Source of the DNA: Chryseobacterium gleum
Lineage (GTDB): Bacteria > Bacteroidota > Bacteroidia > Flavobacteriales_D > Sanyastnellaceae
Assembly: GCA_945881835.1 (NCBI GenBank)
Contig: CAMCVP010000004.1
Span: 1-64,000 of the forward strand
Direction: 5' to 3'
DNA length: 64,000 nt
The notes beneath the pieces were generated by a model. That model was given only the letters and a program-made list of their open reading frames with translations, was not told the origin of the DNA and made no database searches. Below, in pieces: positions 4,311 through 11,000 of the stretch; position 1 is the stretch's first letter, and each line of letters starts with the position of its first letter. The position numbers were made by a program, and so were the translations under genes.

Positions 4311-5891
4311 TTATTCCTTTTCCTTTTTCTTTTCTGATTCTGTCTTTTGTAATTGTTCTACTATAGTGTTCAGCGACTTAATACTTAATTCGTAGTTTTC
4401 ATTATTAAGTTCATACCCAATATACTTTCTTGAAACTAGTAAAGATGTTTTTCCTGTTGTTGCTGAACCCGAAAATGGGTCTAATATAACATCTCCAATT
4501 CTAGATGTTGTGAGTATCGGAATCAACGGAAGATAGTCAGGCATTAATGCTGGATGGTCTACTGAATTATCTAATCTTTGTAATTCAGTTTGTCTAGTTC
4601 CAGCATTTGGACCCGAAATAATATCTAACACATTTTGTTCATCAATGAAATCCTTAAACCTTTGGTAATCTCTACTAATTGTATATCCACCCGGAATTCT
4701 ATCTCTTGTTGAAGAACTTCTATTACTAGGTGCTCTAACTACTCTAATTTCATTGTTTGTTCTTATTCTAAAATCTTGATAAAAGTAATTTTCAGGGTCT
4801 TTAACTAAATGAAATATCTTTTCGTAAGTAGGTTGTAATCTCTTTGAGTTTGCTTGTGGTAATGAATTTGTTTTCTTCCATATTATTTCATTCACAATAA
4901 ACCAACCTTCATTATCACATAACTCTATTAATAATCTTGTTGGAATGATGAGGTTAGCACCTTTATTAAATGTTTCTCCTATGTTGAGGAAAAACGATCC
5001 TTCACTCTTTAATACTCTTTTTACATCTCTAAAATGTTTGGCTAGATTCTTAACGAATTGTTGAGGTGTTGATTCGTGTCCTAATTCAGGTTCTCCATCA
5101 ACACTATTACCATAGTTACGAAGGTTGAAATATGGTGGGCTAGTAAATACCACTTGAACAGAATTTGACTTTACCTCATCCATTTTATGAGATGACTTAT
5201 TGTAAATAGTGAAATCATCGGAATGAACAGGTTTAAGAGTTCTTTTCTTTTCTAATTTCTTTTCAACTCGTTCTCTTAAAATAGTTCTCATCATATTATG
5301 AGCATTACTCGCAGACAGTTCATTTTTAATGATTCGTTCAACAAGTCCTATTTCTTTATTCTTTTCAGATTCTTTCTCAAATTCAACAACATCCATAATT
5401 CTTCTTAAACTTGATGCTGATATATCTCCAATTACTTTTGCCGCAATCTCAAATCTATCTCTTCCAATTCTACCAAAAGGATTTCCTCTTTCTTCTTTCA
5501 TCAAGTCATTTCTAACTCCTTGATTCTTTCCTAGTATTCCTAAAATTGCTTCTGCTTCATTAATAATCTCTCTGGGTGTTTTTCTTCTTTGTTGATTATG
5601 AAAAACTATACTTTGTTCTTCATTTTCATTTGTGATAGTTCTAATTGCTTTTATTGTAGTTCGACCAAGGAACATAAAAGCTCTCCATCTTCTATTACCA
5701 GAGAGAATCTGATTCTTATCGTTGATTACAATCGGTTCAAGCAAACCAACAAGTTCAATTGTTTTAGCAAGAACTTTAATTTCTTTGCTATTTCTTCTGT
5801 AATCATAAATCTGTGCCGATAAAGGGTGTGTAGTCAAATCATTAACATTAACCTCTATAATTTGTTCTACTTCTAATTCTTCTTCTTCCAT
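4311..5891 (-). CDS. ParB-like nuclease domain fused to a DNA methyltransferase
   Basis: There are two domains in 526 residues. Residues 10-100 form a ParB/Srx-like domain: NDLTTHPLSAQIYD, then a helix ending LLEPIVIN, then the ParB box ILSGNRRWRAF at 62-72. A charged helical linker follows. From about 225 there is a beta-class methyltransferase with motif IV TSPPYFNLRNYG starting at 250 and motif I DPFSGSATTGKTS at 471-483. Fusions of this kind occur in phages and mobile elements, usually as stand-alone methyltransferases that protect DNA or regulate genes. It lies upstream of the other methyltransferase on the same strand. An AT-rich C-terminal Lys/Glu tail ends the protein. Target base and sequence are unknown. 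Confidence 0.85.
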   Translation of the reverse strand: MEEEELEVEQIIEVNVNDLTTHPLSAQIYDYRRNSKEIKVLAKTIELVGLLEPIVINDKNQILSGNRRWRAFMFLGRTTIKAIRTITNENEEQSIVFHNQQRRKTPREIINEAEAILGILGKNQGVRNDLMKEERGNPFGRIGRDRFEIAAKVIGDISASSLRRIMDVVEFEKESEKNKEIGLVERIIKNELSASNAHNMMRTILRERVEKKLEKKRTLKPVHSDDFTIYNKSSHKMDEVKSNSVQVVFTSPPYFNLRNYGNSVDGEPELGHESTPQQFVKNLAKHFRDVKRVLKSEGSFFLNIGETFNKGANLIIPTRLLIELCDNEGWFIVNEIIWKKTNSLPQANSKRLQPTYEKIFHLVKDPENYFYQDFRIRTNNEIRVVRAPSNRSSSTRDRIPGGYTISRDYQRFKDFIDEQNVLDIISGPNAGTRQTELQRLDNSVDHPALMPDYLPLIPILTTSRIGDVILDPFSGSATTGKTSLLVSRKYIGYELNNENYELSIKSLNTIVEQLQKTESEKKKEKE

Positions 5892-6024: not shown

Positions 6025-6288
6025 ATGCCAAGAAAATTATCAAAGGATGAATCCAAAAAATTAAGAGAGACCAAGAAGAGTGGTGGCTTAAGAAAAGAAA
6101 CTCGTTTCGGAAAAGAGATTGAATCTCTAAAGAAGGGAGAAGAGTTACTTATTGAAAACCACGAGTGGGATATGAAAACCACTATGTTGGCTTATTACTA
6201 TGGTAAATTCGCTAAAGGAATTCCAGAAAATCAAAGAACTATTCGTTATGAATCTGTTCAAGGTGGTCTTTTGATTACTAAACTGTAA
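6025..6288 (+). CDS. Small basic protein of unknown function
   Basis: I do not recognise a family for this 87-residue protein. The first third is very rich in Lys, Arg, Ser and Glu (KLSKDESKKLRETKKSGGLRK without its first residues). The second half looks like a small folded domain, KKGEELLIENHEWDMKT then TIRYESVQGGLLITKL. It has its own well-formed promoter and is followed by a strong terminator, so it is a single-gene unit and probably expressed. It lies on the island, divergent from the ParB-methyltransferase gene, and may share the operator region between them. Nucleic-acid binding is a guess from the charge only. Confidence 0.65.
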   Translation: MPRKLSKDESKKLRETKKSGGLRKETRFGKEIESLKKGEELLIENHEWDMKTTMLAYYYGKFAKGIPENQRTIRYESVQGGLLITKL

Positions 6289-6303: not shown

Positions 6304-6343
6304 TAAAAAAACTTCCTGTCAATTGATAGGAAGTTTTTTTTTG
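6304..6343. terminator. Bidirectional intrinsic terminator
   Basis: AACTTCCT (6310-6317) pairs with AGGAAGTT (6328-6335) around the inner palindrome TCAATTGA. A T-run follows on the plus strand, and the A-run before it serves as a U-run on the minus strand. On the plus strand it ends the 87-residue gene; on the minus strand it could end the structured RNA candidate or the small-gene operon. Confidence 0.85.
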
Positions 6344-6350
6344 CCTAAAT

Positions 6351-6710
6351 GAGAACGACGACACTTGTGTGTCGTCTCTTTTTTCACGAGCTAAACTTGT
6401 GGTGGGGAGGTTTTTTCTTGCCGGTAATTGGAGTTGTTCGGATGAGTTTATCCCATTACAGATGCTACTCTGCTGGGTCATCTCAAACAATTCTCAATTA
6501 CCTTTAAGATTTTATCTTGCCGTATAATCATCGTCGTTCACATAGAAACACCATTGTCTATGATTGGGTCAGCCACTTTCGACGGTATATGGTCCGCCTC
6601 TATACTTACTCTTCCTAACCTTTATGCCCGAGTCGCACTTTGTATAGTTCCCGTGGTAATGCTTTACAATATAGAAGCCACCGTTATATCAATATCCGTC
6701 CTTCTATAAG
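6351..6710. ncRNA. Candidate structured non-coding RNA (strand uncertain)
   Basis: There is no credible gene here, but base-pairing potential is dense. GACGACAC-TTGT-GTGTCGTC (6357-6376) is a perfect hairpin followed by T-rich sequence. An 80-base imperfect hairpin spans 6423-6502: GGTAATTG/CAATTACC, then GAGTTGTT with 6486-6493, GATGA/TCATC (6441-6445, 6478-6482), CCCA/TGGG (6452-6455, 6474-6477) and CAGA/TCTG (6459-6462, 6469-6472). Further stems are CATAGA/TCTATG (6541, 6557), CGTCG/CGACG (6532, 6580), CTATAC/GTATAG (6600, 6642) and TATAGAAG/CTTCTATA (6670, 6701). The stretch is visibly richer in G+C than the rest of the island. It could be a regulatory RNA, a ribozyme, a plasmid or transfer origin, or a retron-type RNA; no reverse transcriptase is in view. 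Confidence 0.5.
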
Positions 6711-6720
6711 GTTGTTTTTA

Positions 6721-6873
6721 TTATTTTAATCTTTCCATTCTAATCTTCAATTCGTCTATTTGTATCTTCAATCTCAATATCTCTCTTTTCTTGTAATCAT
6801 CTTCTAATTTTATCTTATCCTTATTTAACTTTATAGTTCCCTGTAATTTGTTAATCTTTTCAATATCAGCCAT
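6721..6873 (-). CDS. 50-residue coiled-coil microprotein
   Basis: An ATG at 6873 opens a 50-codon frame ending with TAA at 6721. The product is almost entirely charged helix: ADIEKINKLQGTIKLNKDK, then YKKREILRLKIQIDELKIRM. The regular spacing of Ile and Leu suggests a coiled coil. Its start overlaps the end of the next upstream gene by 8 bases, so translation is probably coupled and the three small genes 7364 to 6721 form one operon. No family recognised; it may be an oligomerising partner of the upstream HTH protein. Confidence 0.55.
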   Translation of the reverse strand: MADIEKINKLQGTIKLNKDKIKLEDDYKKREILRLKIQIDELKIRMERLK

Positions 6874-7096
6874 TATCTTTTTCTAATTTCTCAATTAATA
6901 TTTTTTCCATAATTGTAAATAGAACATTTTCAGAATATAGATTCTTGTTATTGTATATCATATTTTGAGAAAGTTTATTTTTTTTTAATTCTCTTTGTAT
7001 TTTTGACCTTGATGTTCCAATAATTTCTCTCATTGAAGATATATCAAACAGTCTATCGTTTTCTTCTGATATGTATCCTATTACTTTTACTTTCAT
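6866..7096 (-). CDS. Small helix-turn-helix-like protein
   Basis: The 76-residue product contains FDISSMREIIGTSRSKIQREL, which has the look of a MerR/excisionase-type winged helix-turn-helix entry (a short strand, then a helix-turn-helix). It is followed by NMIYNNKNLYSENVLFTIMEKIL. It overlaps the upstream acidic-protein gene by 44 bases and the downstream microprotein gene by 8 bases. A role as a small DNA-binding accessory or regulatory protein of the mobile element is inferred from this and from its position near the island end. Confidence 0.5.
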   Translation of the reverse strand: MKVKVIGYISEENDRLFDISSMREIIGTSRSKIQRELKKNKLSQNMIYNNKNLYSENVLFTIMEKILIEKLEKDNG

Positions 7097-7364
7097 ATTT
7101 TCTTTTCAATCTTTTATATTCATTTAGAAGTTCATCAATAATTTCATCGTCAGATTCTTCATCATCAATCGGCTCTTCTTCGTCCTCAAATTCATTCAAT
7201 TTTTTTACCTTTTTTCTTCTTAATTCATCTGGGTTTTCCTCATCAGGAAATTCAACCTCATCATCATCAGGTAAGCTTTGACCTTGTGATTGAGCAGAAT
7301 ATTTTTCCAATATAAACTTGATGAAATCGGTCTGTAGAAACTTTCTCTTTTTCATTATTTTCAT
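7053..7364 (-). CDS. Acidic low-complexity protein
   Basis: The 103-residue protein has a short basic N terminus (KKRKFLQTDFIKFILEKYS), a long Asp/Glu-rich middle (about residues 33-80), and a strongly basic C terminus ending RIHIRRKR. No family is recognised. It is the first gene of the three-gene minus-strand operon and overlaps the next gene by 44 bases. An upstream inverted repeat GAATTGA/TCAATTC (7376-7382, 7389-7395), 12 bases before the ATG, may be its operator. The plus-strand Ser-rich frame over the same DNA is only its mirror image. Confidence 0.55.
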   Translation of the reverse strand: MKIMKKRKFLQTDFIKFILEKYSAQSQGQSLPDDDEVEFPDEENPDELRRKKVKKLNEFEDEEEPIDDEESDDEIIDELLNEYKRLKRKYESKSNRIHIRRKR

Positions 7365-7518: not shown

Positions 7519-7548
7519 TATCTGACTATTAATTAGAATAGTCAGATA
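7519..7548. repeat. 12-base inverted repeat near the island end
   Basis: TATCTGACTATT (7519-7530) and AATAGTCAGATA (7537-7548) are exact reverse complements around a 6-base loop, about 40 bases inside the island/comM junction. It could be a recombinase arm-type site, an operator or a hairpin terminator. The rest of 7396-7518 shows no gene and no other clear signal. Confidence 0.55.
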
Positions 7549-7587: not shown

Positions 7588-8079
7588 ATGAATATATGTC
7601 CGTGTGGCTATTTCAATCATCCGGAAAAAGAATGCACGTGTGGTTCAGGAGTAGTGCAGCGTTATTTGAGCAAGGTTAGTGGCCCATTGTTAGATCGCAT
7701 TGATTTACATGTGGAAGTGACTCCGGTTCCGTTTTCACGCTTGCATGAGCAGCGCGCGGGCGAGCGCAGTGTGGGTATTCGCGAGCGTGTTACGCGCGCA
7801 AGGGAGCTGCAGTCGCAGCGATTCAGTGAGAGTAAAACGAATTACAATGCGCAGATGAATACGCAGGAGTTGAAGGCGCATTGTGCTTTAGATGAAGCCA
7901 GTTCAGAGTTGTTGAAGTTGGCCATGAATAAGCTTCAGCTTTCAGCGAGAGCCTATGAACGCATCTTAAAAGTCGCTCGTACGATAGCCGACTTGGCAGC
8001 TTCAGAAAGAATACAAAGCGAACACATTTCAGAAGCCATTCAATACCGAAGTTTAGATCGAGAGAATTGGGGTGGGTGA
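7588..8079 (+). pseudogene. comM: 3' remnant of comM (yifB-type Mg-chelatase-like ATPase)
   Basis: The 163-residue frame reads CPCGYF, then GPLLDRIDLHVEV at about 31-43, and a C-terminal helical domain with LSARAYERILKVARTIADLA. This is the C-terminal third of ComM/YifB, a hexameric AAA+ helicase that promotes branch migration during natural transformation. In intact proteins the Cys-rich motif is preceded by Asn-Pro and by the Walker A/B ATPase core. Here the Pro is replaced by Ile, and everything upstream is AT-rich island DNA. The gene is thus interrupted at this motif and the fragment cannot be an active ATPase. The missing 5' part should lie beyond the island's other end, if the island is a single insertion. 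Confidence 0.9.
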
Positions 8080-8099: not shown

Positions 8100-11000
8100 A
8101 TGAAAAGACTCGTACTCCTTTTTGTTTTTGCTTCACAATTGTTCATGGCGAATGCGCAAGTTCACTTCGCAAAGAATTTTCAAAACGATCCGAAGTTACC
8201 TGAATGGGCGAAGCTCATGTATGACGATAGCACCGACCCAATGGTTGTGAAAGCCGCGTATGAAGCGTATTTCAGCGAGCACACTTTCGAGAAGACCGTT
8301 CATACGCAATACTACAAACGCTGGGTAAGCACCAACCAAGCACGGTTTTTTTCAGATCGAAATGAAACGGTGAATTCAGAAGATCGCGGAAGCGGCATCT
8401 GGAATTACTGCGGACCGAAAGTACATTTCACATCCGATGGAAACTTGACTCCGATTAGCGAACATGCCAACGTTTATTGTCACGATAGAAGCGCCGTGGA
8501 TAATAACACACTCTACTGCGGGACGGAGTCAGGCGGCGTATACAAAAGCACTGATGCTGGAACTACTTGGGAATTCGTGACAAAGAATTTAATTATCGGA
8601 GGAGTGAGCGCTGTACGATGTCACCCTACTGATTTAAACACTGTTCTTTTCAGCGGAAACAATGAAATTTACAGATCCATTGACGGTGGCGTTACTTGGA
8701 ATATCATTGGTGGTTCTTCCTTTGAGGCCCTAAACATAAACGTTTGGGAATTTCAATTTCACCCCCTTCAACCCAACATTGTATTTGCTGCAACGAATCT
8801 AGGTTTGTACAGATCTACCGATACTGGTGATACCTGGACCGAAATACTTCCGAATGAATGCATGACCGTTTCATTCAAACCGAATGATTATTCGGTTGTG
8901 TACACTGTTCATTTTGAACCTACAATCGGAATTGCTAAATTCTACAAAAGCACCGACACTGGACTGACGTTCGCGATGAGCGATAACGGTTGGTTTACAG
9001 AGAACTCGGGTTTTACAAATGTTGAATTGTTGGGCGGACATATGGCAGTAACCGAAGCTGATCCGAATAGAATTTATGTCGCATTAGCGGGTTACGGAAC
9101 CTACAACACCAATGTTGAATTGAACGGTTGGATTGGCTTGTACGTGAGTTACGACGGAGGCGATTCTTGGGTGAATAATCACGGAACCATTGGTACACCT
9201 TACAATGTGGATACTCATCCAAACCTCATGAACTTCTCTGCCGACGACGGAACATACACCCAAATTCACTACAACACCACCTTGGTGGCTTCCCAGATAA
9301 ATCCAGACAAAGTTTTAATCGGAGGACTGAATGTTTGGCTCACTGAAGATGCGGGAGCAACGTTCAGTGGTGTGGCCGGATACATTGGCGGACTTCCGAA
9401 TTACCACGTGGATCAACAGGAATTCAGAATTTACAAAGACAGTCCAACTACCGAAACCATCTGGTGCAGCAACGACGGAGGGATAAATATTTCAACGGAT
9501 TTTATGCAAACCTTCGACGCGAAGAACTACGGCATTATGGCTGTTAATCTTTGGGGATATGATCAAGGATGGAATGAAGACATTCTGGTAGGCGGACGTT
9601 ACCACAACGGTAATATGGGCTATTACGAAGCTTACGGGTCGGGCAATTTCTTGGCGCTAGGTGGTGGTGAAGCAGCGACGGGATATGTGAATTATTCAGA
9701 CGAGAATAAAGTAAGTTTTTCTGATATTGGAGGAAGGGTCTTGCCTGATGCGTTGACGGGAAATCCGACTGGATTCAATGTGAGTTTGTTTCCGAATGAG
9801 AGCTATTGGTTTAACGAGAGTTCGCGCATTCTTTTCGATTCGCATTACTTCAATGTGGCTTGGTTGGGTAAAGAGAATAAAATTTACAAGAGTATCAACG
9901 GTGGTCAGTCGTGGTCACTTCAATATACATTCGGAACGACAACAACGAATAACGTTATTTGGATTGAACAGTCATACACCAATGCCGACGTGCTTTATGC
10001 GCAGCAGCGAATAAGCGGTACTATGAAGCTTTGGCGTACGTTGGATGGAGGCGTTACTTGGAATCAGGTTGCTTTGCCGTTGAATCAAAACAACATGGTG
10101 TTCACGTTAGGCAATACACCGGAAGAGTTTTGGTTGGGATATACCAATGCCAACAATTCGCAAAAGGTTTATTACACGAACGATGGTGGAGCGAATTATC
10201 AGAACTGGTCTGGAACTGCCATTGGCTCTGATCGAATCTGGTCTGTTTGCGCGCAATTGGGTACGAACGCTGGGGTGTATATTGCTTTGTTGCATGGAAG
10301 AGTTCTTTACCGAAATGCAAGTATGACCGAATGGATGGAATACAGCAGCGGACTTCCAGCGGGCACGGAGCCGATTCGAATAGTTCCGTTTTATAGAGAC
10401 AATGAATTACGTTTAGCAACATGGAATTTGGGAGTTTACGAAGCGCCACTTTTTGAGGCGTCTTCGTTGTTGGTCGATTTCGCCGGTGAACGTGGTACGT
10501 ATGTTTGTCCGGGTGAAACCATTCACTTCGTAGACCACAGCGTGGCTTCAGCCAATGCAACTTACCTCTGGAGTTTCCCAGGTGCAACGCCCTCAACGAG
10601 CACAGAAAAATATCCGACCGTTGTGTATGCTTCAACCGGGGTCTTTGACGTGACGTTAGAATTAACTGATAACGGCAATACGGCTTCAAAAACAAAGCAG
10701 GCATATGTGCAATCGACCTTGCCTAACAATGAGTGTGTTTATGAGCCATTCGACAGCGGTGCAATACCAACCGAATGGACGTTCGGTCATAGCACAGGAG
10801 GTGGCGATGTCTTTTCAATAAGTGATGCATGCAGTGCGAATGGTTTCGGAACTCACTCAATTACCTTCCCGAATTACTGGGTAGATGTCGTTGGTAATAG
10901 AGATGAGCTCATTCTAGAAAAGCAAATTACTTTTTGGAGCGGAGGTACGTGGGTAATTGATTTCGATGTGGCTTATGCAGAATACGGCGGTCAATACACA

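Follow-up and report, generated by a model that had tools for sequence, protein, structure and literature searches.

GOLLD, ROOL and OLE are large structured non-coding RNAs of mobile elements; GOLLD and ROOL are also found on phages, and no role has been agreed for them. Structured RNA can also replace a Rep protein in the start of replication, as the ColE1-type RNA II primer does. Pseudoknots are found in the omega RNAs of TnpB/IscB and in the RAGATH-18-derived reRNAs, both of which lie beside genes of mobile elements. The STAXI motif of Enterobacteriales, a short pseudoknot in tandem repeats, occurs near DNA-handling, integrase and antirestriction genes (PMC2864571), and mobile elements in general are frequent carriers of non-coding RNAs that are abundant but have no known role (PMC7567579, PMC12286853). 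The gene comM is the kind of target used by inserted islands such as AbaR in Acinetobacter (PMC7508600).

Here we describe an intergenic locus on a small mobile island in the genome of a member of the Bacteroidota. It lies in a stretch of 64,000 nucleotides that we analysed as a whole and refer to as the window. Judged from its sequence, some 330 bases of the minus strand of this island probably encode a structured non-coding RNA that has not been described before (Table 1). It would be much smaller than GOLLD, ROOL and OLE, bears no sequence or Rfam relation to them, and occupies the slot of a Rep gene behind an operon. Unlike STAXI it is a single large fold, again with no Rfam match. In contrast to omega RNAs and reRNAs, it has neither a variable guide nor a match in Rfam, and no nuclease partner was found in cis. 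The likeness to RNA II, which has an RNase H and antisense RNA I layout, is an analogy only, drawn across host groups and between RNAs lacking homology. The island also differs from AbaR, as it belongs to another phylum and to another type of element. To our knowledge, the description of AbaR includes no RNA of this type.

Results

The preliminary description of positions 6351-6710 had portrayed a stretch into which no gene fits, folded over nearly its whole length and richer in G+C than the AT-rich island around it. All three points held. None of 100 dinucleotide shuffles folded as well as the 360-base stretch on either strand (z = -3.04 on the minus strand, -3.61 on the plus strand), and G+C amounts to 43% at 6401-6600 as opposed to 20-34% in the adjoining island windows. 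The 80-base hairpin proposed at that time is present with a minimum free energy of -33.0 kcal/mol, which none of 200 shuffles equalled. Of the other proposed stems, those at 6541, 6600 and 6670 are recovered as the conserved helices P5, X and P1, and the one at 6357 is a terminator-like hairpin on the plus strand. Rfam 15 contained no family above the gathering threshold for the RNA region, relaxed thresholds included, in line with the suggestion of an undescribed RNA; sub-threshold matches fell mostly on the terminator and its surroundings.

On the minus strand, three overlapping small genes (7364..6721) lead into the structured region, just as had been supposed; a terminator and a convergent 87-aa gene follow beyond it. 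The postulated bidirectional terminator is a genuine palindrome with A and T tracts, matching its own reverse complement by 94% over 36 bases. A simple terminator scanner did not list it, probably because the A and T tracts pair and lengthen the stem. A similar palindrome follows the Rep gene of the related locus L010 (E = 2e-6).

Table 1. Features of the RNA locus and its flanks (window coordinates)
Feature	Position	Strand	Basis or remark
Palindromic bidirectional terminator, would end the RNA	6304..6343	.	Palindrome with A and T tracts
Hairpin plus T-run, terminator for plus-strand transcripts (side of the 87-aa gene)	6357..6376	+	Terminator-like
First small operon gene, 103 aa	7053..7364	-	ORF
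Second small operon gene, 76 aa	6866..7096	-	ORF
Third small operon gene, 50 aa, immediately upstream of the RNA	6721..6873	-	ORF
Convergent 87-aa gene	6025..6288	+	Homologues near the operon in L028 and L051
Predicted structured non-coding RNA (core, 5' hairpin, 3' tail)	6385..6710	-	L020 homology, z = 10, covariation
P1 hairpin, stem 6708-6701/6677-6670	6670..6708	-	6/8 pairs doubly changed in L020; loop well conserved
P0, long-range closing helix GGGA/U(n)CCC, 6652-6649 with 6408 and 6406-6404 (tentative)	6404..6652	-	Three identical pairs and one single-sided change
Helix X, 6647-6642/6605-6600	6600..6647	-	2/6 double changes; one pair lost in L020
Helix Y, 6633-6630/6611-6608, around the conserved GGCAUAAAG loop	6608..6633	-	2/4 double changes, counted after a one-base realignment
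Pseudoknot helix PK, 6620-6616/6571-6567	6567..6620	-	4/5 pairs doubly changed
P3 hairpin, 6598-6594/6585-6581	6581..6598	-	3/5 double changes; similar 8-nt loop
P5 hairpin	6541..6562	-	1 double change
P6 hairpin, 80 nt	6423..6502	-	z = -7.42; shorter in L020; terminal helix covaries once realigned by hand
Conserved 3' tail CAAGAAAAA..CCCACCACAA.UUUAG.UCGU, mostly unpaired	6385..6420	-	Sequence comparison

BLAST and Rfam having given nothing, the three-gene operon upstream of the RNA was followed instead and led to one diverged homologue, L020:8641-8971, which sits on a separate comM-inserted island at the same position behind the same operon. Global alignment of the two copies reached z = 10.1 over 100 dinucleotide shuffles, and in a pair-probability alignment the structure component contributed just z = 1.2 beyond sequence alone. 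The tail CAAGAAAAA..CCCACCACAA.TTTAG.TCGT and the GGCATAAAG loop occur in both copies. When the tail was compared with the remaining window sequence and with the L020 contig, the only complementary stretches were of a length expected by chance. The entire fold of the L020 copy is weakly better than its shuffles (z = -1.28), a value that can arise when a pseudoknot is ignored in folding.

Helices lie at matching positions in the two copies, and P1, X, Y, P3 and PK contain pairs in which both bases have changed in a compensatory manner. For the covariation search, alignment columns were screened for helices canonical in both sequences, two sequences being all that entered it, and the outcome was compared with 1000 column shuffles. 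The strand in the sense of the operon gave six helices with at least two double changes (shuffle mean 1.23), a number reached in 0.5% of the shuffles. Three helices had at least three such changes, and in the best one four of five pairs were doubly changed; shuffles attained each of these values in 0.2% of cases. On the complementary strand the same three measures were reached by 6.4%, 19% and 19% of the shuffles. The six helices are not all mutually compatible, PK, P3 and X forming the compatible set. P1 and Y appear after a small realignment by hand, which favours structure and lowers the weight of their counts accordingly. RNAalifold on MAFFT alignments missed PK, since it does not draw pseudoknots, and P1 owing to slips in the alignment; these helices were located afterwards by the column-wise search and by hand. 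PK crosses X and Y, which results in an H-type pseudoknot with P3 inside.

Compensatory changes beyond chance, as the preliminary description had asked of a structured RNA, were thus found in the homologue and on the minus strand only, from a comparison of two sequences. Moreover, the conserved helices contain G-U pairs, which are A-C mismatches on the other strand. Covariation confined to the operon-sense strand, together with these pairs, therefore points to an RNA read in the direction of the operon. Of the two possibilities first raised, an undescribed non-coding RNA or an origin, the former is borne out by the homologue and its one-sided covariation. The latter has become less likely because the G-U pairs and the strand specificity indicate RNA, and is possible as a secondary role.

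None of the ORFs in the region matched Pfam or PHROGs. Neither copy has an uninterrupted frame and no frame is common to the two, which also answers the alternative of a decayed gene put forward at the outset. The best translated matches between the window and L020 contain stops and track the nucleotide alignment in several frames simultaneously. One minus-strand frame of the window (6515-6694) would read about 60 codons if TGA encoded Trp; searched as a protein it had no homologue, and it is not conserved in L020. Stop-codon readthrough or frameshifting by P1 was considered and rejected, as the stop-codon spacing is approx. 12 nt in one copy and 34 nt in the other and the frames downstream are broken.

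The RNA family has two known members, the window and L020 copies. Searches of 199 genomes related to that of L020 and of 200 related to that of the window yielded no third one, nor did BLAST against 396 genomes from the phylum, plasmids and phages. BLAST matches in plasmids, phages and approx. 600 genomes were short and due to chance, those inspected lying in housekeeping genes. Exact patterns of the conserved tail and the core in IMG/VR retrieved unrelated phage, coding or simple chance matches.

Nine loci emerged when 84,980 genomes were searched with a profile built from the three small proteins of the operon, these proteins and not the RNA being the query; single-genome searches added L010 and L051. 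Behind the operon, L010, L021, L023-L028 and L051 carry a gene for a protein of 163-230 aa. An HUH-type Rep fills the slot in all nine related islands in which the next gene is readable. L022, whose operon proteins do not differ from those of L023, ends before the slot. An invariant HxH and Y..KQ, known from HUH endonucleases, is found in the eight slot proteins that were aligned, of which one had a sub-threshold match to REP_ORF2-G2P. The small Rep family, encoded for instance at 8558-9100 in L028 and 4467-5159 in L051, gave no Pfam or NCBIfam model above cut-off for the proteins tested. L028 and L051 have an 86/87-aa gene near the operon as well, and both lie in comM.

In the window and in L020, the RNA stands in the slot instead of Rep. 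The Rep profile, which finds the Rep of genome G495 at 4e-44, had no match in the window or L020 genome, so Rep has not simply moved elsewhere in these assemblies. A sequence model of the window/L020 pair matched none of the Rep-bearing loci. The operons of the window and L020 fall into the same clade as that of the Rep-bearing L021, suggesting that RNA and Rep are exchangeable beside closely related operons.

Discussion

The position of the RNA in the Rep slot and the lack of Rep in either genome lead us to prefer a role in the replication or maintenance module. We give even weight, for and against, to the proposal that a stable RNA derived from the 3' end of the operon serves this module of a comM-targeting element. 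The RNA of approx. 330 nt would be the 3' part of the minus-strand transcript of the three small genes, which the palindromic terminator (6343-6304) would end. It is predicted to fold into a 5' hairpin (P1) and an H-type pseudoknot core, in which X and Y are crossed by PK with P3 between them, continuing with P5 and the 80-nt hairpin and ending in a conserved A/C-rich tail that is left exposed. The RNA might be cut free from the operon transcript as a stable species, and its tail and conserved GGCAUAAAG loop might bind a protein. Placed in the slot of the HUH Rep, it may act in the replication or maintenance module of the element; the one pointer to replication is the position of its gene. A bolder version, in which the role of the HUH initiator has passed to the pseudoknotted RNA and replication of the excised element begins with an RNA instead of a protein, strikes us as decidedly doubtful.

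The main rival is a stable structured RNA carried as cargo at the 3' end of the operon and unrelated to replication, with a role in defence, anti-defence or regulation, for example. All structural evidence fits such an RNA equally well, both RNA-bearing islands carry restriction-modification genes, and abundant non-coding RNAs with no known role are, as noted above, common on mobile elements (PMC7567579, PMC12286853). Cargo would, however, have to account for an RNA that takes the Rep slot after the same three genes and is followed, in the window, by the same convergent 87-aa gene and a similar terminator. We consider this explanation somewhat unlikely, if still appreciable.

Next comes a cis-acting DNA site, i.e. 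a single-strand origin or oriT that folds as single-stranded DNA and is served by a Rep or relaxase in trans. HUH proteins act on folded single-stranded DNA, and an element lacking an HUH Rep of its own could have retained such a site as the remnant of a satellite. Significant covariation on one strand only, including G-U pairs, is hard to reconcile with a DNA fold; in addition, the Rep-bearing islands show no such site and neither host genome contains Rep. We regard a DNA site as improbable.

Chance hairpins or a decayed gene are very improbable and largely refuted already by the L020 copy: the covariation and the conserved sequence speak strongly against chance, and the frame of approx. 60 codons across TGA stops, which might hint at a former gene, has no homologue and is not shared with L020, where, as in the window, frames are broken and the weak matches include stops. 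A guide-RNA-like molecule (an omega RNA or reRNA of a TnpB/IscB-type nuclease), a retron RNA or an intron remnant whose partner has been lost or lies elsewhere is barely conceivable, since the general resemblance in size and pseudoknot is offset by the lack of an adjacent RuvC/HNH nuclease or retron-type reverse transcriptase gene (window island by Pfam, L020 island ORFs by eye), of any Rfam match, intron models of group I or II included, and of a variable guide at the RNA end, the 3' tail being conserved between the two copies.

The RNA would add a pseudoknotted family with no Rfam counterpart to the small mobile elements of Bacteroidota. Its slot yields a testable prediction, namely that the RNA substitutes for the replication module or cooperates with it. 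Should RNA and Rep prove interchangeable there, the family offers a direct handle on integrated elements that manage without a protein initiator.

The three-gene operon and the convergent 86/87-aa gene form a conserved module that gave no Pfam match above threshold and belongs to an undescribed family of Bacteroidota elements. Members interrupt comM, apparently at differing positions (window 7588-8079; L020 6100 and 14729; L028 5200-5907; L051 2364-3260), and differ in their recombinases, a tyrosine integrase in the window and a large serine recombinase in L028. According to Pfam, the window island encodes the tyrosine integrase, a resolvase, a small HTH protein and two N6/N4 DNA methylases, one of which (4311-5891) has an N-terminal ParB-like domain; an unassigned 348-aa gene is also present. 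The L020 island contains no integrase and a truncated hsdR: the HsdR-like gene adjoining the RNA (9185-10258) encodes only 357 aa, and the type I system may be broken. Having lost its integrase and part of hsdR, this island may be inactive, and the conservation seen there may predate its decay. The window begins at the contig start, and the left border of its island is therefore missing. On the right, the island ends in comM, with what we take to be the C-terminal part of ComM beginning at 7588. Close to this end, at 7519-7548, lies a perfect 12-base inverted repeat (TATCTGACTATT/AATAGTCAGATA), which is perhaps part of the attachment site.
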